A stretch of 56,492 bases of DNA from an uncultured Fibrobacter sp. (GTDB lineage Bacteria > Fibrobacterota > Fibrobacteria > Fibrobacterales > Fibrobacteraceae): NCBI RefSeq assembly GCF_947305105.1, contig NZ_CAMZCS010000021.1, forward strand, positions 1 through 56,492. The letters are read 5' to 3'. The notes under the pieces are model-generated. The model did no database searches, was not told the DNA's origin, and saw only the letters and a program-made list of their open reading frames with translations. This document shows, piece after piece, positions 19,402 to 37,264 of the stretch (within the stretch, counting starts at the first letter, position 1; every line of letters begins with the position of its first letter). The position numbers were made by a program, and so were the translations under genes.

Positions 19402-20481
19402 ATGAAATTTCGCCTTTCGACAGAGACTTTGAACCGCCTGAAGCGCTTCCGCAAGAACAAGCGTGCGTTCTGGTCCCTTGTCGTCCTTGTGGTGGCGTAC
19501 CTGCTCTCGCTTACCAGCCCCTGGACGGTGAACGACGAACCCCTTTATTTAAAGTACAACGGTAAGTCCTATTTCCCGGCGTTTGCGCGTTACAGCGATG
19601 CGGATTTTGGCGGGGATTACCAGACGGAAGCCGATTACGCGAAGATTTTTGCCGAAGTGCGCGAGTGCGAGGAAGATGCTGCCGAGGGCTTTACCCGTGC
19701 CGGTGGTTGCCCCGAGACCTGGGCGATTATGCCGCCCATTGCACACGATCCCTTGAAAGCGGACTTGAGCGAAGACGGAACGCCCCCGTTTGCTCCGAGT
19801 GCAAGGCACTGGCTCGGCACCGACAGCAACGGCCGCGACGTGCTTTCTCGCCTGATTCACGGTTTCCGCATTTGCATCAGCTTCAGCCTCCTGTTGACCA
19901 TCCTCGGGACTTTTCTTGGAATTGTCATTGGTGGCATCCAGGGCTACCTGGGCAAATTCTGGGACACGGGTATGCAGCGTATGATTGAAATTTGGTCGTC
20001 GTTGCCGATGCTTTACGTGGTCATCCTTATCGGCAGCATTTATGGTCGAAGTTTTTGGCTCCTGATTCTCATCATGGCGGCGTTCAACTGGATTTCGCTC
20101 AGCTACTACATGCGCGCGGAATTCCTGAAGTTGCGCAGCATGACTTACGTGCAGTCGGCGAAGGTGCTGGGCTTGGGCCACCGCCATATCTTTTTCAAGG
20201 AAATTTTGCCGAATGCGCTCACTCCCGTAGTGACGCTTTTCCCGTTTACGCTTATTGGCGGTATCGGGAGCCTCACTTCGCTGGACTTCCTTGGTTTTGG
20301 CCTGCAACCGCCCACACCGAGCTGGGGCGAACTCATGAGCCAGGGACTCAATAATTTGTATGCACCGTGGATTTCGGTGAGTACGGTTGCCGCTTTGTTC
20401 GTAACGCTTTTGTTGACCACCTTCGTTGGCGAGGGCGTGCGCGATGCCATGGACCCCAAATCGGGAGATCGTTATGTCTAA
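19402..20481 (+). CDS. yejE: YejE-like ABC transporter permease
   Basis: 359 aa inner-membrane permease of the peptide/microcin C class. The N-terminal arginine-rich segment (FRKNKRAFWSL) and first helix are followed by a YejE-type periplasmic insert (about 48-115) containing KSYFPAFARY and FGGDYQTEADY. The LGTDSNGRDVLSRLIHG motif is at about 140, then five helices with the EAA-like loop (SAKVLGLGHRHIFFKEILPNA) near 255. It needs a second permease (YejB), a binding protein and an ATPase; only the ATPase is nearby. The 3' end overlaps the patatin gene by 8 nt. Confidence 0.87.
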   Translation: MKFRLSTETLNRLKRFRKNKRAFWSLVVLVVAYLLSLTSPWTVNDEPLYLKYNGKSYFPAFARYSDADFGGDYQTEADYAKIFAEVRECEEDAAEGFTRAGGCPETWAIMPPIAHDPLKADLSEDGTPPFAPSARHWLGTDSNGRDVLSRLIHGFRICISFSLLLTILGTFLGIVIGGIQGYLGKFWDTGMQRMIEIWSSLPMLYVVILIGSIYGRSFWLLILIMAAFNWISLSYYMRAEFLKLRSMTYVQSAKVLGLGHRHIFFKEILPNALTPVVTLFPFTLIGGIGSLTSLDFLGFGLQPPTPSWGELMSQGLNNLYAPWISVSTVAALFVTLLLTTFVGEGVRDAMDPKSGDRYV

Positions 20482-21328
20482 AAAGGGCTTGGTTCTTGAG
20501 GGGGGCGCAATGCGCGGACTTTTTACCTGCGGCGTTCTCGACCTTTTTATGGAAAAGGGGATTGAGTTTGACGGCGCGGTAGGTATTTCTGCCGGAGCCT
20601 GCTTCGGATGCAACCTCAAGTCCCGCCAGCCGGGGCGTGCTTTGCGCTACAATCTGCGCTTTGCGGGCGACAAGCGGTATTGCAGTTTCCGTTCCCTTTT
20701 CAAGACGGGCGACATCTACAATGCCGATTTCTGCTACCACAAAATCCCGCAAGAACTGGATCCGTTTGATTTCGATACGCTCAAGAAAAATCCGATGGAA
20801 TTCTACATGGGCGTGACGGATGTCGAGACAGGCGAGGCGGCGTTCCCGCAGCTTGTTGACGGATGCGACAAGGACTTGGAATGGATGCGCGCTTCGGCCT
20901 CGATGCCCCTGGCCGCGAAGATCGTGGAGATTGATGGCGGCAAGTATATGGACGGAGGCATTGCCGATTCCATCCCGCTGCAGTTCATGCAATCAAAGGG
21001 CTACGACCGCAATGTGGTCATATTGACGCAACCCAGAAATTACGTGAAAAAGCCCAACAGCCTCATGCCGCTGATACGCTTAGTTTATAGGAAATATCCG
21101 AATTTTGTCCGTGCGGTGGCATGCCGGCACGAGATGTACAACGCCGAGACTCGCTATATATTTGAACAGGAAAAGGCGGGGAATGCCTTGGTGATTTGCC
21201 CTGACGCTCCGCTGGGCATCAGCCGTATCGAGAAGAAAGGCGCTGAACTGCAGCGCGTGTACGACATGGGAAGGAATATTGCGGAACGTCGCCTAGACGA
21301 AATTACGGAATTTCTTTCGAAGGGTTGA
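20474..21328 (+). CDS. Patatin-like phospholipase
   Basis: 284 aa. Oxyanion-hole motif EGGAMRGLFTCG (7-18), nucleophile elbow GISAGA with Ser near 39, and the catalytic Asp in DGGI near 160. It resembles the YjjU-type cytoplasmic patatins that cleave acyl esters of phospholipids. The ATG at 20474 is chosen because the family N-terminus (KKGLVLEGG) follows directly; it overlaps the permease stop by 8 nt. Only 1 nt separates its stop from the ATPase start, so it is embedded in the transporter operon. Confidence 0.87.
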   Translation: MSKKGLVLEGGAMRGLFTCGVLDLFMEKGIEFDGAVGISAGACFGCNLKSRQPGRALRYNLRFAGDKRYCSFRSLFKTGDIYNADFCYHKIPQELDPFDFDTLKKNPMEFYMGVTDVETGEAAFPQLVDGCDKDLEWMRASASMPLAAKIVEIDGGKYMDGGIADSIPLQFMQSKGYDRNVVILTQPRNYVKKPNSLMPLIRLVYRKYPNFVRAVACRHEMYNAETRYIFEQEKAGNALVICPDAPLGISRIEKKGAELQRVYDMGRNIAERRLDEITEFLSKG

Positions 21329-21329
21329 T

Positions 21330-22463
21330 ATGTCGGAATCAGTGCGTTTACCCGTTCTCTCGGTGAAGTCCCTTTCGGTTGCGTTCGGTTTTGATAAAAA
21401 CGGGACGCCGCGCGATGGCATCCCGCCGCTGCAGGTGACCGACAAGGTGAGCTTCGACATCTATCCCGGCGAATTCTTTGCACTGGTGGGGGAGTCGGGG
21501 TGCGGAAAAAGCGTGACGGCCATGGGAATACTCCGCTTGTTGCCGCAGCCGAGCGCCCGCATTGTCGATGGCTCCGTTCTTTATCGTTCAGGAGCTGCCG
21601 AAGGGAACGATGCTTCGCTGGATTTGGCAAAAATTCCGCTGGCCGATTTGCAGAAAATCCGTGGTTCCGAAATCGCTTGCATCTTCCAGGAGCCCATGCA
21701 GGCGCTGAATCCCGTGGTAACCATCAAGAAGCAGTTGCTTGAAGTCTTCCGCTATTCCCAGCGCTCTTCTGACAGCCGTTCTAAGCATTCTTCTGATTGT
21801 CATTCCCGGCTTGACCGTGGATCTCCTTCTGACAATCTCGCCGCAATCCGCGAAATGCTCACTTTGGCGGGCTTCAAGGACATCAACCGCGTCCTGGATG
21901 CTTACCCGCACGAACTTTCCGGTGGAATGCTGCAGCGCGTGTGCATCGTGATGGCGCTGCTGCCCAAGCCCAAGATCATTATCGCCGACGAACCGACGAC
22001 CGCCCTCGACGTGACCGTGCAGGCCCAGGTGCTTGCCGTACTCAAGGACATGGCTGGCCGCACGGGTACGGCAGTGCTTCTGATTACGCACAACATGGGA
22101 ATTGTCTCGCAATATGCGGACCGCGTGGCTGTCATGTATGCCGGACGCATCGTGGAAACTGGCCCTGTCCGCGATGTCATCGACGCCCCGATGCATCCTT
22201 ATACGCAGGGACTGCTGGCCGCCATTCCCGAAAGCCATGGCGACATGCGCACGATGAAGTCCATTCCGGGAAGTGTCCCGCATCCGAGAGATTTTGCTTT
22301 AGGCTGTCGGTTTGCCGACCGTTGCGAAAGATGCGCCAGCGGCAATGCCGAACTGCAGGCGATGTGCCGTTCGGCCCAAGTCCCGCCGCGAGTGTTCGCC
22401 GACAATTCGACACAACACGAAACGAACTGCTTTGGGATGGTTATTCCACGACCGGTCTCATAA
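21330..22463 (+). CDS. Peptide-class ABC transporter ATPase with repeat insertion
   Basis: 377 aa ATPase of the DppD/OppD/YejF class. Walker A GESGCGKS at 54-61, Q-loop FQEPMQALNP at 119-128, signature LSGGM at 196-200, Walker B IIIADEPTTALD at about 215, H-loop LITHN at about 250, and a C-terminal oligopeptide-transporter tail with FADRCERC. Residues about 144-169 (QRSSDSRSK...SPSDN) lie between Q-loop and signature, in the helical subdomain, and are encoded by a palindromic repeat. The frame is intact. Unlike YejF it has one ATPase domain, so a partner subunit must be elsewhere. Confidence 0.88.
   Translation: MSESVRLPVLSVKSLSVAFGFDKNGTPRDGIPPLQVTDKVSFDIYPGEFFALVGESGCGKSVTAMGILRLLPQPSARIVDGSVLYRSGAAEGNDASLDLAKIPLADLQKIRGSEIACIFQEPMQALNPVVTIKKQLLEVFRYSQRSSDSRSKHSSDCHSRLDRGSPSDNLAAIREMLTLAGFKDINRVLDAYPHELSGGMLQRVCIVMALLPKPKIIIADEPTTALDVTVQAQVLAVLKDMAGRTGTAVLLITHNMGIVSQYADRVAVMYAGRIVETGPVRDVIDAPMHPYTQGLLAAIPESHGDMRTMKSIPGSVPHPRDFALGCRFADRCERCASGNAELQAMCRSAQVPPRVFADNSTQHETNCFGMVIPRPVS
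21795..21837. repeat. Palindromic repeat inside ABC ATPase gene
   Basis: 43 bp bounded by GATTGTC and GACAATC, containing GTCATTCCCGGCTTGACC, a form of the widespread bacterial GTCATTCCCGG...GACC repeat. Three TTCTGA copies lie in and just before it. It is read in frame as part of a serine-rich insert. Confidence 0.65.
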
Positions 22464-22464
22464 T

Positions 22465-22632
22465 CATTATGTCCTCATAGCTAAGAATAAGGAGCTTATT
22501 CAGTTTCGGGGGCCCGATGTACCTCAAGAAGCTTTTCAATTTGATATGAATCCTGCTGATCCTGTGATTCTGAATCGTTGGAGTATAGATGAAAATTGGG
22601 GCTGGAAATGGGATTTTAGATATAGGTGGTAA
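22465..22632 (+). pseudogene. Possible C-terminal remnant of a lost gene
   Basis: An open frame without its own start runs from just after the ABC ATPase stop to a TAA at 22630-22632. It encodes HYVLIAKNKELIQFRGPD, then an aromatic-rich end with five Trp before the stop (NWGWKWDFRYRW). The composition is AT-rich like the next gene and unlike the ATPase gene. It may be the 3' end of a gene whose front was deleted. No family is recognised, and it could be chance. Confidence 0.35.
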
Positions 22633-22641
22633 GATTCGATT

Positions 22642-23757
22642 ATGAAATGTATGCTTCTATGTGTATTGCTTAGTGCGACATTTATGCTGATATCGTGTTT
22701 TGGACCTTTCCCAAAAAAGAATCCTGCCGAAAAACAAACGGCGGAAACGCATGAGATTTGGAGCAGTCGATTCTCTTTTCCAAATAGTCCAAATGTCATT
22801 TCGTATCGCTTCCATAACCCTCAAATAATGTTTGATGCGTGGGAAAACATTCAAATAGACTTATCGTGCAATGAGGATAGCGTTGATATTCTTGTAATTC
22901 GTTCGTATATGGAGTGGAATAATTCGCCAAAATCTGTAAAAGAAGAACATTATAAGGCGCCTTATTCTTGTAGCATGTTTAATGAATTTATAAGACGTCT
23001 TGCCTCTGTTAAACCAGAAAAATGTGAATCACGTAATGCTTATTCGATTAATAGCGACATTAGTCCAACTATAATTTTTACTGATGGATCGAATACGCTT
23101 CGTCACGTTTCGTACTATGGGAGGTTCTGTGCGTTTGGTCGTAATGAAATGGAACGGACCCCGTTAGAGTCAATCGACTATGACTTGAGAAAGTTTATAA
23201 TGGATGCGGGAGCCTGGAAAAACTTGGTTGTAAACCGTCCTTTGCGGATTATTGATAATCCAGATGCGGTGAAATATTCTATGACATCGTCGTTAAAGAA
23301 TTTTGACAAACGTTTCATGAAAAAAAAGCAAATTTTATCATTGAATCAAGACACTTCTTTTACGTTTGTTGAAAATCTAGATGTCCTTCCATATTTCAGG
23401 GCTTATATAGAAGATAATCGCGTTGTATATGAACTCAGCGAAAATGGGAAAATTTTGAAGACAAGTGAAGATACGGATGTCCTTTCATTTGAGAAAATGC
23501 TGGAGTCATTGAGGTCTTACAAGATTGAAACATGGGTAATTTCTGCAAGTTGCAAGGGACCGTGGAAATCTTTTTATTGGAATGATGAAAATTTCTTAAA
23601 TTCAATTTACTTCCACTGCGAAACAGAAAACCAGGAAGTTTGGTCGTTGCGTAAAAAAGTAGAGGATTGGTTTAAGTCGAAGTTAAATATGTTGGAAGAA
23701 AACGAAATGAATACAGATGGTTCCAAAAACGAACCGGGCAATCAGGGAATACCATAA
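22642..23757 (+). CDS. Lipoprotein of unknown function
   Basis: 371 aa. Lipobox LISC with Cys19. No recognised domain; the mature protein has several aromatic and Cys residues (SCNED, YSCSMF, EKCES, RFCAF, ASCKG, FHCET). Strongly AT-rich and codon-biased unlike the GC-richer genes around it, which suggests acquisition together with the remnant in front of it. The ending is Asn/Gly/Pro-rich (SKNEPGNQGIP). A small lipoprotein after a truncated ORF could be an immunity-type gene, but nothing in it proves this. Confidence 0.65.
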   Translation: MKCMLLCVLLSATFMLISCFGPFPKKNPAEKQTAETHEIWSSRFSFPNSPNVISYRFHNPQIMFDAWENIQIDLSCNEDSVDILVIRSYMEWNNSPKSVKEEHYKAPYSCSMFNEFIRRLASVKPEKCESRNAYSINSDISPTIIFTDGSNTLRHVSYYGRFCAFGRNEMERTPLESIDYDLRKFIMDAGAWKNLVVNRPLRIIDNPDAVKYSMTSSLKNFDKRFMKKKQILSLNQDTSFTFVENLDVLPYFRAYIEDNRVVYELSENGKILKTSEDTDVLSFEKMLESLRSYKIETWVISASCKGPWKSFYWNDENFLNSIYFHCETENQEVWSLRKKVEDWFKSKLNMLEENEMNTDGSKNEPGNQGIP

Positions 23758-23844: not shown

Positions 23845-23891
23845 GTTCGTGTTTGAAATTAAGAACGACAATATCGACGGGGGAATGTACA

Positions 23892-24833
23892 ATGGCCAAG
23901 CGCAAGCCGCTCAAGGATTGTATCGTGAAGCCGGGCGAGAGGAGCCCGTTTGCAAACTTGCTGGTGGATCTGGCCTTCAAGAAGGCCTTTGACCCGGATA
24001 AACCTTCAAGCCGTGAAAACCTTGTGAACCTGCTGAACGACCTGCTGGAACCTCAGCTCAAGCGGCCCATCAAGAACGTGTGGACTCGCAACGTGGCGAA
24101 AAACCTGAGTGGCAGCAGGGAATCCCGCACGGCGATTTTTGATTTGCACTGCGAAGACGATGCCGGAAATTTGATCGAGATTGAAGTGCAGATTCGCAAG
24201 TTGAGAAATTTTCGCAAGCGCCTCGCTTTCTATGCGAGCGAATTGGTGGCAAACCAGGCGGAGCCCGGCCAAGAGTGGAAATTTGACGTAAAGCCGACCT
24301 ACGTCATCGCGTTTGCACAGCATAACGTATTCGATGATGACCGGATTGTTCATCGTGCAACAACTACAGATTTGGAAACGGGAGAGCAGTTTGTCGATAC
24401 CTACAATTATACGGTTGTCGAACTTCCGAAAGTTCCGTTCTTCATTGATAAGAAATCCGACGATTTGAGCAAATGGCTCTTTTTCTTCCGTTTCTTGAGT
24501 CGGCTCAAGGAACTTCCTGCCGAATTTTCCGAGCATAAGTTCGAACGCTTGACGGAAAGCTCAAAAGTATCTAATTTCAGTAAGGAAGAATTCGAGGCAT
24601 ATCAAAAAATGTACCACAAGGAATGGGACCATAACGCCATGGTCGACGGCGTCTTTGAGGAATTCGCGAAAGAAATAGACGCGAAGGTCGAGGAACGTGT
24701 GTCTGAACGCATTTCCAAGGAAATCAGCGAAAGTAAACGCGAAATGGCGAAGGCTATGCTCGCCGATAATGTCCCTGTTGAGAAGATTGCCGCTTATTCC
24801 GGCCTTTCCAAGGAAGAAATCGCTCAGCTCTAG
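23892..24833 (+). CDS. Rpn/PD-(D/E)XK nuclease family protein (TIGR01784 type)
   Basis: 313 aa. The opening AFKKAFDPD...ENLVNLLNDLL and the nuclease core FDLHCEDDAGNLIEIEVQI (about 90-110, with Asp and the ExE pair) match the transposase-like Rpn nucleases. The C-terminus is a charged coiled coil (AKEIDAKVEERVSERISKEI) and ends in a short helix-turn segment (MLADNVPVEKIAAYSGLSKEE). E. coli Rpn proteins cut DNA and promote RecA-independent recombination; these genes are often present in many copies. The start is ATG 23892, with GGGGGAA upstream. Its TAG stop is the first unit of heptamer array D. Confidence 0.82.
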   Translation: MAKRKPLKDCIVKPGERSPFANLLVDLAFKKAFDPDKPSSRENLVNLLNDLLEPQLKRPIKNVWTRNVAKNLSGSRESRTAIFDLHCEDDAGNLIEIEVQIRKLRNFRKRLAFYASELVANQAEPGQEWKFDVKPTYVIAFAQHNVFDDDRIVHRATTTDLETGEQFVDTYNYTVVELPKVPFFIDKKSDDLSKWLFFFRFLSRLKELPAEFSEHKFERLTESSKVSNFSKEEFEAYQKMYHKEWDHNAMVDGVFEEFAKEIDAKVEERVSERISKEISESKREMAKAMLADNVPVEKIAAYSGLSKEEIAQL

Positions 24834-33656: not shown

Positions 33657-35777
33657 TTAGTTCTGGGTATTGTTGACGGAATTGGTGGCGGTCTCGTTCC
33701 CGGCCGCAGGCTTGGGCTGCACTTCGCTTACGGGCGCGTCGGCTACGGGGGCCACGGGCGGCTGCTTTCCCGGATCAGGCGGGGGAGTTTCCTCGCGCTT
33801 TTTCTTCTCGGCGAGTTCCTCCATGGCCTGGTACTGGCGGCTCTTCTTGGTGCCGGTGAGCTTTTCGCCCGCCATGACCTTGTCGATTTCTTCGCGGTCG
33901 AGCACTTCGAATTCGAACAGCGCTTCGGCGAGGTCGATGAGCTTGTCCTTGTTCTCTTCGAGGAGCTTGCGTGCGGCCTGGTCCATACGCTTGATGAGGC
34001 TGTTGATGGCGTCGTCGATCATCTCGGCCATCTTTTCGGACATTTCCTTGGGCTTGCTGATCTCGCGGCCGAGGAAGATTTCTCCGTCGTTACGGCTGTA
34101 GCATACCGGGCCGATGTTGTCGTCGAATCCCCATTCCGTGACCATCTTGCGGGCGAGTTCGGTGGCGCGCTGGATGTCGTTGCTGGCCCCCGTGCTCTGG
34201 TGGTTGAAGAAGATGAGTTCGGCGAGACGGCCGGACATCATGATCATGATGCGTTCTTCGGCGTATTCGCGGCTGTAGCTTACCTGGTCGCGTTCGGGCA
34301 GACTCATGGTCACGCCGAGGGCGCGGCCGCGCGGGATAATTGTAATCTTGTGGAGCGGGTCGCTGTGCTTGCACAAAAGCGTCATGAGGGCGTGGCCCGC
34401 TTCGTGGTAGGCCGTGTGGCGCTTTTCCTCGTCGGTCATCAGGAGGGTGCGGCGTTCGGCGCCCATGCTGAGTTTGTCGCGTGCTTCCTCGAAGTCGAGC
34501 ATCGTCACCTTCTTGTTGTTGAAGCGTGCGGCGAGGAGGGCTGCTTCGTTCACCAGGTTTTCGAGGTCGGCGCCGGCAAGCCCCGGCGTTCCCTTCGCGA
34601 TGGCCGAAACGTCTACGTCCTTGTCCAGCGGAACCTTTCTCTTTTTCAGGTGAACTTTCAAAATCTCTTCGCGGCCCTTCAGGTCGGGCAGCCCGACCAC
34701 GATTTGCCTGTCGAAACGTCCCGGACGCAGCAAAGCCTTGTCGAGCACGTCGGGGCGGTTGGTGGCAGCAATCAGGATGACGCCTTCGTTTGCAGCGAAA
34801 CCGTCCATTTCCACGAGCAACTGATTGAGCGTCTGTTCGCGTTCGTCGTGCCCGCCACCGAGGCCTGCGCCACGCTGGCGACCCACGGCGTCAATTTCGT
34901 CGATGAACAAAATGCAGGGCGCGTTCCTCTTGCCGGTCTCGAACAAGTCGCGCACGCGGCTTGCGCCTACGCCTACGAACATTTCCACAAAGTCCGAACC
35001 CGACATGCTGAAGAACGGCACGCCGGCTTCGCCTGCGACTGCACGGGCAAGCAACGTCTTGCCGGTACCCGGAGGGCCGACAAGCAGCGCACCCTTCGGA
35101 ATGCGTCCACCGAGTTCGTCGTACTTTTTCGGATCTTTCAAAAATTCTACGAGTTCCTGCAGGTCCTGCTTGGCCTCGTCGCAGCCAGCGACATCGCTGA
35201 ACATGGTCTTTTTCTTGTTGTTGTTCAACTGCTTCACTTGGCTCTTGCCGAAACTGAACGGGTTCTTGCCGCCGCCGCCCATCTGCCTGCTCGTCATGAT
35301 CCAGAAGAATGCGATGAGGAGGAGGACCGGGAGGAATGCAATCAGAGTGTCAATCCATGTGGTCGATTCGTGGATGACCTTGACTTTGACGCCCTTGTAG
35401 GTTTCCCATGCCGATGCCATCTCGTTTGTGACATCGAGCATGTGGGTCTTGAAATGCTTCTTATTCGAAACCTCGCTGCCGGCCTTGGTAAAGCGGGCGA
35501 TGGCGCTCTGTTGCTGCTTGGCCTCGGCGATTTCCTTGTCGCTCATCATGCGGGTGCCCTCGACAATCACACCGTCGGGAGTCCTTTGCAATGAGAGCTC
35601 GGTAATGACCTTGGTGGAGTCGCCCATCATGGCGAGGAATTCCGTGCGCGTCATTTCTTCGTTGTTGTCGTTCGTTGCGAGCGGGAACATGACGAAGAGG
35701 AGCAAAATCATAATAATCAGGACGATGAAGTTCCTGTTCTTGAAGGGGGAGGTGGGCTTTCCCTGCATCTGGCTCAT
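33657..35777 (-). CDS. ftsH: ATP-dependent zinc metalloprotease FtsH
   Basis: 706 aa. Two transmembrane helices (about 15-33 and 125-145) flank the periplasmic domain. The AAA+ module has [19 protein letters not shown] near 235, Walker [10 protein letters not shown] near 290, and the SRH segment. The M41 protease domain has HEAGH near 455. The C-terminus is Pro/Glu-rich and ends in Asn. It degrades membrane and short-lived cytoplasmic proteins. ATG 35777 is chosen, with AAGGA upstream; the longer open frame extends into tilS. It overlaps tilS by 4 nt (ATGA). Confidence 0.96.
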
Positions 35778-37264
35778 TTCAATCCTTTTCTTTTCAAATT
35801 CTCTGTTCGGATTCCGGATACGAATAAAACCCTTGTTCCCTGCGCAAACACCTGGAGCGAGTCGCGTTCCCAGCGGGGAATGCCTTTCTCTTGCAACCAT
35901 TCGGCAAGTTTGCGGGGGGAGATTTTCATATCCATCGGGCTAAGGATGTCGCCTTGTTGCGGGTGACGCCATTGCCCGGAGATTCCGGAAAATCTTTGTT
36001 TTTCGTTGGAAAAATACAAATTTGACGGCGCTAAGATTGTGTTTGAATCGTAAATCCAGACGATATGGCGACATTTCTCGATAAAGCGCGTGCGGAACGA
36101 GAGCGTGCGCATCGTCTGGGAATTGCCCGTGTAGATGGGATTGGGCTTGGCAAACGTGTCGACGGGGAAGCGGAATCCCCGGGAGTCCAGCCACAGCCTC
36201 AGAAGTTCCGGGTAAGGCGGGATGGAGGCGAGTGCACCGGCATCGAGTGCGAGGACCTTGCCGTATTTGGCGCAAGAGGCTTCGAATGGCCAGGTGTCGG
36301 GCGGGACGATGGCGGGGGCGTATAGCTTGTCCGCAGCGTCCAGGACTTTCTTGTAGGCACGGTCGGCAAGGCTTGCGATGCGGCAAAGCTGTGCTGTCGC
36401 GCCGGGGCAGGATTTCTCCAGCTGGGGCAGCGATTCGTGCCGCACCTTGTTGCGTGCAAAATTTACGTCGGCATTGCTTTCGTCTTCGCACCAGGTGAGG
36501 TTGTGCTCGCGGGCGTAGGCGAGGAGGTCTTCGCGGGTAACGGAAAGGAAAGGACGGTAGATGAATTTTGATTGATGATTGATAATTGATGATGGATGAT
36601 TGATGATGAGGGGGGAAGTATCCCCCTGATTGCAGCCCGTTGCACGGTCTTCCATCACCCCCTCTAGCGGGGCTTCAGACGTCAGCCCCGCAACGCCCTG
36701 GCTATTGCCTAAAACGCGGATTTCCTGAATTCCCCTTAGTCCCGCAAGGGTTGTGCCGCGGCGGAGGCGCATGAACATCGTCTCTGCCTGGTCTCCAGCA
36801 TGGTGAGCCGTGACGATGGAGGTACGAGGCTCGAGGCTCGGGGCACGAGGTTCGACATTCTTTTCTGTCATCCCCGCGGAGGCGGGGATCTCCTTTTCCT
36901 CATTGCTCACTGCTGATAGCTCACTGCTCATCGCTATTTCGACCAGCGCCTTGTACCTTGCATCCCTCGCGTTTTCTTCGAGCGAGCCGTCCATTGCCTT
37001 GAGCGCTTCGCCATCCAACTTTTTCAAGAAAAACGGAATATTGTGCGACTTCGCAAATTCCTCGACAAATGCAGCATCCCTGTCGGCAGTGCCTTCGCGC
37101 AGCCCGTGATGCACATGTGCAATGCCGAGCCATTCAATACCCAAAGCCTCTTTGTTCTCAATAAAATAATGCGCCAAGCAAATAGAATCTAACCCGCCCG
37201 AAACCGCAAGCAGCAGGCGCTTGAAACCATAATGGCGAATATTTTCTGCGAAGGAACTTTTCAA
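35774..37264 (-). CDS. tilS: tRNA(Ile)-lysidine synthase with two repeat-derived insertions
   Basis: 496 aa. It converts C34 of tRNA-Ile(CAU) to lysidine. PP-loop VSGGLDS at 21-27, HVHHGLR at 51-57, TAHHAGDQAET at 152-162, RPFL at 237-240 and the RNKVRHESLPQLE block near 271. Two stretches do not belong to the family: residues about 114-150 and about 185-233. Both are encoded by heptamer arrays plus small palindromes, and both fall in loops between conserved motifs, leaving the frame intact. The C-terminal tRNA-binding part is complete. The enzyme is essential in most bacteria, so the inserts are presumably tolerated. It lies 9 nt after a lipoprotein gene and overlaps ftsH. Confidence 0.93.
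   Translation of the reverse strand: MKSSFAENIRHYGFKRLLLAVSGGLDSICLAHYFIENKEALGIEWLGIAHVHHGLREGTADRDAAFVEEFAKSHNIPFFLKKLDGEALKAMDGSLEENARDARYKALVEIAMSSELSAVSNEEKEIPASAGMTEKNVEPRAPSLEPRTSIVTAHHAGDQAETMFMRLRRGTTLAGLRGIQEIRVLGNSQGVAGLTSEAPLEGVMEDRATGCNQGDTSPLIINHPSSIINHQSKFIYRPFLSVTREDLLAYAREHNLTWCEDESNADVNFARNKVRHESLPQLEKSCPGATAQLCRIASLADRAYKKVLDAADKLYAPAIVPPDTWPFEASCAKYGKVLALDAGALASIPPYPELLRLWLDSRGFRFPVDTFAKPNPIYTGNSQTMRTLSFRTRFIEKCRHIVWIYDSNTILAPSNLYFSNEKQRFSGISGQWRHPQQGDILSPMDMKISPRKLAEWLQEKGIPRWERDSLQVFAQGTRVLFVSGIRTENLKRKGLK
36566..36712. repeat. Composite repeat in tilS (array G plus palindromes)
   Basis: Array G, six TGATTGA-type 7-nt units (36569-36610), is followed by the palindrome GGGGGA-AGTA-TCCCCC (36611-36626) and by GGGGCT-9 nt-AGCCCC (36669-36689). 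The whole segment is translated in tilS between LAGLRGI and the RPFL motif. Confidence 0.85.
36815..36935. repeat. Composite repeat in tilS (arrays H and I plus palindrome)
   Basis: Array H (36819-36853, five GAGGCTC-type units), the palindrome ATCCCCGC-4 nt-GCGGGGAT (36870-36889; the widespread GTCATCCCCGC repeat) and array I (36900-36934, five TCACTGC-type units). They are read in frame in tilS between the ATP-binding and TAHHAGDQAE segments. Confidence 0.87.

Follow-up and report, generated by a model that had tools for sequence, protein, structure and literature searches.

The analysed window is a contig of 56,492 nucleotides from an uncultured Fibrobacter sp. It harbours an intact gene for an ABC transporter ATPase that belongs to the DppD/OppD class, as indicated by its ABC_tran (1.5e-23) and oligo_HPY (8.5e-18) Pfam domains together with intact motifs, which we take to be a Walker A motif at about residues 54-61, a Q-loop at Q120 and an LSGGM signature at residues 196-200. 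The top fold match of the protein is DppD from E. coli (8z1v_C), and no stop codon occurs within the gene. Within 19402-22463 (plus strand), a patatin-like gene with a DUF6363 domain separates the ATPase gene from a gene for an OppC-type permease. The next open reading frame of at least 200 aa downstream (22642-23757) had no Pfam match at E <= 0.001, so an OppF-type partner does not lie directly downstream of the ATPase. A gene for a PD-(D/E)XK nuclease family transposase (PDDEXK_2, 6.2e-40; 23853-24830, plus strand) is located 1.4 kb downstream of the ATPase. Among plasmid records, 11 matched the ATPase gene partially and none reached 80% gene coverage. The features of interest are the following:

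21330-22463, plus strand: intact gene for the DppD/OppD-type ABC transporter ATPase, 377 aa (Pfam, motifs, fold match)
21759-21837, plus strand: whole extra stretch, residues 144-169, QRSSDSRSKHSSDCHSRLDRGSPSDN, predicted to be disordered (translation, orthologue comparison, AlphaFold2)
21773-21783, plus strand: decayed half-copy of the repeat, aligned to TTGTCATCCCC of locus L094 (alignment with L096 and L094)
21798-21829, plus strand: full copy of the CGTC-type REP (TGTCAT, hairpin, ATCTCCTTC), read as CHSRLDRGSP (covariance model R1, 34.7 bits)
21827-21837, plus strand: tail TTCTGACAATC, which pairs into an outer 8-nt palindrome with GATTGTCA (alignment of four rows)
36866-36896, plus strand: second window copy, lying within TilS (gene at 35774-37264, minus strand) and translating to EIPASAGMT (R1, open frame)

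A composite insert in the ATPase gene

The initial annotation described a palindromic repeat translated in frame inside an ABC ATPase, supplying about 26 residues between the Q-loop and the LSGGM signature. Both the repeat and its place are confirmed: in a whole-genome search, model R1 recognised the hairpin with E 4.1e-6, and the extra residues are 144-169 of the 377-aa frame, between Q120 and the signature. Furthermore, TGTCATTCCCGGCTTGACC with at most three mismatches had one match in the window versus 0.01 expected. The full copy accounts for only about 11 of the codons; to its left, some of the residues are contributed by the decayed half-copy and a spacer. The three TTCTGA copies reported as belonging to the repeat are present (21767, 21791 and 21827) but are no defining part of it: some hexamer occurs at least three times in 333 of the 8059 79-nt stretches of the window and in 281 of 20000 letter shuffles of 21759-21837, and TTCTGA was rejected as a repeat unit because such threefold hexamers are ordinary.

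The stem of the window copy contains one mismatch and one wobble at places where the stems of L096 and L094 are perfect, which suggests that the window palindrome is decaying with its frame still open. The tail is the same in L096, differs by one base in L094 and is missing from L011; the outer 8-nt inverted pair between GATTGTCA (21795-21802) and TGACAATC (from 21830) is complete only in the window and L096 among the four rows compared. The layout is shared with L011, located elsewhere on the orthologue tree, where a half-copy is likewise followed by a 13-nt spacer and a full copy, and a half-copy also lies upstream of three further copies of the source genome (L078, L081 and L093). A repeat finder at default settings reported nothing within 21600-22000, and Rfam gave no match at E <= 1 within 21300-22500. 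The RNA fold of 21750-21850 was no better than that of shuffled sequences (z = 0.00), a result that counts against the reading favoured below.

In an AlphaFold2 model built from 41 sequences, the ATPase reached a mean pLDDT of 86.6, and runs of at least three residues with pLDDT below 50 were confined to residues 1-3 and 145-164. The latter run is placed by the model between helices 132-141/144-147 and 166-179 of the helical subdomain, and the repeat-coded loop is predicted to be floppy or disordered. The initial annotation had located the site in the helical domain that contacts the permease; its position between helices of that subdomain agrees with the model, whereas a contact with the permease finds no support in a stretch predicted to be disordered.

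A dispersed repeat family and its host genes

The repeat is a 32-nt hairpin with consensus TGTCATnCCCGGCTTGACCGGGnATCTCCTTT. Model R1, a covariance model built from 16 distinct copies that do not include the window copy, with recognised gene-internal loci left out, identified 23 places in the 3.57-Mb source genome at E <= 0.001, including the window copy. Across the 16 seed rows, 99.2% of the stem cells were paired and 18 cells had changed on both sides; none of 500 shuffles equalled the stem pairing, the both-sides cell changes or the covariation score. Two coarser covariation counts were not beyond the shuffles (pairs changed on both sides, 35/500; further pair types, 192/500). The seed pattern fixed most alignment columns, and the free pair 7-24 was seen as GC, UA and CG. 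A 28-nt consensus with at most three mismatches was found in 23 of 25 genomes of the genus and in none of the 16 outside it, with no reversed-control matches; genome G014 had the most copies (26) of the 41 genomes searched. The 22 pattern matches of the source genome comprised 16 in reverse and 6 in forward orientation, although contig orientation is arbitrary and this strand bias may mean nothing. The only close pair among the 23 places, C38:5979 and C38:6015, has both members in the same orientation. We found no paper on Fibrobacter repeats, as judged by titles and abstract openings.

At least four of the 23 places of the source genome lie in frame inside genes, namely those for the ATPase, TilS, a topoisomerase (C-terminal region; L326/L087, G000:C36:24539) and a type-ISP methylase (L310/L088, G000:C38:2666). 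Four other places (L315, L321, L322 and L330) remained unclassified, and L323, within a 438-aa frame, was left out of the gene-internal count. TilS had been singled out by the initial annotation as the second gene of the window with repeat-derived residues, as its in-frame copy bears out. Across the genus, the TilS orthologues differ greatly in their loops at the corresponding position, with best-match open frames of 349-604 aa.

Further in-frame host genes in the genus include a CN hydrolase, a UvrA-like gene and a GT2 gene. Gene-internal copies accounted for 5 of the 26 pattern copies in G014 (in a type-ISP methylase, a CN hydrolase, two serine-rich stretches and the ATPase) and for one among the 16 examined of 25 copies in G004; these counts disregard the open frames that span L215 (ahead of the probable start), L240, L242 and L246. 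The G014 copies L228 and L236 read VIPASSGNL within poly-serine stretches of long open frames. In the few rows that were readable, the UvrA-like gene had the repeat in G001, a nested version in G014 and none in G004, and the nitrilase had it in G014 and G001, a nested version in G006 and none in G019; the loop pattern was unmatched in 24 of 28 nitrilase and 9 of 28 UvrA-like loci, and misplaced in L287, L289, L296 and L307. TilS, the UvrA-like gene and the nitrilase thereby resemble the ATPase in their patterns. Second palindromes or short repeats in or beside a copy were observed in the ATPase loop (L110, L111, L113, L114, L117 and L121), in the UvrA-like gene (L283 and L295) and in the nitrilase (L255). 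Such nested repeats often sit in the hairpin loop of an existing copy; no long frame was found across one of them, L320 (G000:C60:3688).

The Y1 transposase domain PF01797 (Y1_Tnp) was present in 7 of the 25 genus genomes and was found neither in the source genome nor in G014. At up to six mismatches, the repeat was absent from 12 PF01797 loci, of 21 matches listed. An origin through RAYT transposases was rejected, as the number of copies does not visibly follow PF01797: G014 combines 26 copies with no such domain, and G021 no copies with two.

Recurrence in the ATPase loop across Fibrobacter

We compared 58 Fibrobacter orthologues of the ATPase, consisting of the 50 measurable rows of one 52-row set and eight from another, and recognised loop repeats by inspection in 13 of them, in both orientations and three reading registers, some of them nested. 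Five carriers have a forward repeat (L008, L096, L094, L011 and L015), and four more (L110, L111, L113 and L114) have a forward repeat with a second palindrome nested in its hairpin loop; L117 has two elements, forward and in another register, L107 and L121 have the repeat in reverse orientation, and L146 has a different repeat. R1 matched all carrier loops except that of L146, the weakest matches being those of L107 and L117 (E 0.0014 and 0.0011, respectively, over 402,769 bases). Judged by match position, R1 at E <= 1 had no loop match in the 45 rows labelled non-carrier, and its other matches in the orthologue loci were all located beyond the portion of the ATPase gene that had been matched.

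On an orthologue tree built without the loop columns, in which several branches of a 20-row group are weak, the carriers occupy five separate places. Carrier status requires 10 changes, of which seven are forced by well supported branches; it is only weakly clustered, since shuffled labels required a mean of 12.0 changes and 29 of 500 shuffles were as low as 10. Repeats in the ATPase loop span several distinct lineages of Fibrobacter and occur in either orientation, and the differences in orientation, register and repeat type by themselves require no fewer than four insertions. L095 is without the insert though nested in the carrier clade (99/95), so inserts must also have been lost or exchanged from one lineage to another. 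No cleanly empty site showing a target duplication came to light, filled and empty loops differing beyond the repeat itself. The distance from FQEPM-AL to LSGG ranged from 42 to 95 residues among the 50 measurable of 52 orthologues, and several orthologues had Ser/Ala/Gly-rich loop expansions without repeats.

The insert is not specific to one strain, a point that the initial annotation had proposed to check: it is common to two other Fibrobacter species, represented by L094 and by L096 (genome G008), and related inserts recur in the genus. Conservation of the insert in distant homologues, named there as the result that would refute the repeat reading, was not observed; in the Mycobacterium tuberculosis relative Rv1281c, a gap of 16 columns falls at the position of the extra stretch, and the repeat pattern had no match in the 16 genomes searched outside the genus.

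In five carrier pairs, dN/dS was 0.04-0.06 for the core of the ATPase and 0.27-0.59 for the loop, the latter estimated from few sites. The core in carriers is under strong purifying selection, and the loop much less so. One stop codon was found within the match in each of four genus orthologues (G020, G003, G016 and G022); in the carrier G020 (L060), the open frame spans the loop and extends into the C-terminal portion.

Relation to known repeats and origin of the insert

Short dispersed hairpins are also found in REP/RAYT systems, whose GTAG tag is lacking in the Fibrobacter repeat. A closer likeness is offered by the CGTC REPs (Di Nocera et al. 2013, PMC3733652), which are described with an unpaired TGTC/CGTC tag, an 8-9 bp stem starting with AT and a 4-5 nt loop, and as being without a dedicated transposase and mostly intergenic, with some intragenic copies that include uvrA among their targets; all these traits are shared. 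The tag, CGTC but often TGTC or CCTC in that superfamily, is TGTC at 21798 in the window and in all 16 seed rows, where the seed pattern required it, and CGTC in L090 of the source genome. The stem has eight pairs, A-U followed by U-A, in 16/16 rows (columns fixed by the seed pattern), and the loop is CTTGA in the window copy and the main consensus, with other lengths among the seeds. No linked transposase was found for Y1 (PF01797), the one family tested. In contrast, the tail, mostly CCA in CGTC REPs, is CTCC(TTT) in Fibrobacter; CTCC was required by the seed pattern, and the seed-free 28-nt search also returned mostly CTCC. Because PMC3733652 gives CCA for most tails, not for all, we claim membership despite this exception: judged by these features, the Fibrobacter repeat fits the CGTC-tagged REP superfamily except for its tail. 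Head-to-head dimers, which predominate among CGTC REPs as a usual trait rather than a definition (PMC3733652), are absent from the 23 places of the source genome.

In-frame translation in unrelated genes is likewise known from the Rickettsia palindromic elements (RPEs; PMC10969869, PMC2229807, PMC3733652), among which RPE-4 and RPE-6 have been identified with CGTC REPs (PMC3733652). RPEs measure about 105-150 bp (PMC10969869, PMC2229807), so that the 32-nt repeat does not have the size of the RPE-1 type, and its hosts are not Rickettsia but Fibrobacter, here sampled from gut and rumen. Events of this kind are therefore known; what is new is its unusually clear recurrence. A CGTC REP occurs at about the same site of recB in two Xanthomonas (PMC3733652), whereas in Fibrobacter one loop carries repeats at five places on the tree, a recurrence stronger than any in the parts of PMC3733652 that we consulted, whose main text has no occurrence of Fibrobacter.

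The repeat belongs to a dispersed family and lies in frame without stops, in a gene with an intact core on which purifying selection acts. Very probably, a dispersed CGTC-type REP was copied into a disordered loop of a DppD-type ATPase, where it persists as a near-neutral passenger. The site that received the palindrome would be the interhelical loop of the helical subdomain; selection would purge most insertions into genes, and those that keep the frame within a disordered loop would survive as nearly neutral passengers, which decay by point mutation and can be lost or struck again. As the inserts are in frame, free of stops and in a loop predicted to be disordered, they are most likely tolerated, and selfish or inert elements are their most likely nature.

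A single ancestral insertion, kept in a few species and lost or replaced elsewhere, with loss and recombination producing the scatter, is improbable. The distant loci L094 and L011 do share the same composite of half-copy, similar 13-nt spacer and full copy, and these two inserts may have one origin; L095 moreover demonstrates that an insert can vanish. Point changes cannot, however, produce the opposite orientation of L107 and L121, the other register of L117 or the different repeat of L146, and the 45 non-carrier rows in which R1 had no loop match also speak against it. Somewhat less probable still is a co-opted loop that tunes the ATPase, for instance through contact with the permease or a regulator. 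In its favour, coupling to the permease runs through the helical subdomain in ABC importers, and carriers have kept the frame open, but the stretch appears disordered in the model, is less constrained than the core and varies widely in length, and close relatives do without the insert.

A Ser/Arg-rich low-complexity loop that resembles a palindrome by chance would accord with the repeat-free expansions of several orthologues and with the ordinary TTCTGA count; it is extremely unlikely in view of the genome-wide significance of the window copy, which L009, L094 and L015 exceed in score. A pseudogene in decay, or an insert created by faulty assembly, is in our view just as implausible: the assembly is a draft in 72 contigs and four orthologues contain a stop within the match, but the same insert occurs in two MAGs (L094 and L096), the core is strongly constrained and the window gene has no internal stop.

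Beyond the passenger reading, it is conceivable, though doubtful, that a few loops of conserved proteins in Fibrobacter (ATPase, TilS, UvrA-like and nitrilase) act as standing landing pads where successive nested insertions, each in frame, lengthen the proteins, the hairpin loop of a resident REP being the preferred next target of a still-active mobiliser other than Y1. Whether new CGTC REP copies still form was left open in the paper that defined them (PMC3733652). No mobiliser is known for CGTC REPs, and the repeatedly struck loops of Fibrobacter supply many filled and empty sites, which make the mechanism of insertion, its tolerance and its loss directly testable. Stretches resembling HSRLDRESP, IPGQARND or VIPGLTGN in Fibrobacter proteins would accordingly be read as DNA parasites rather than as functional motifs.
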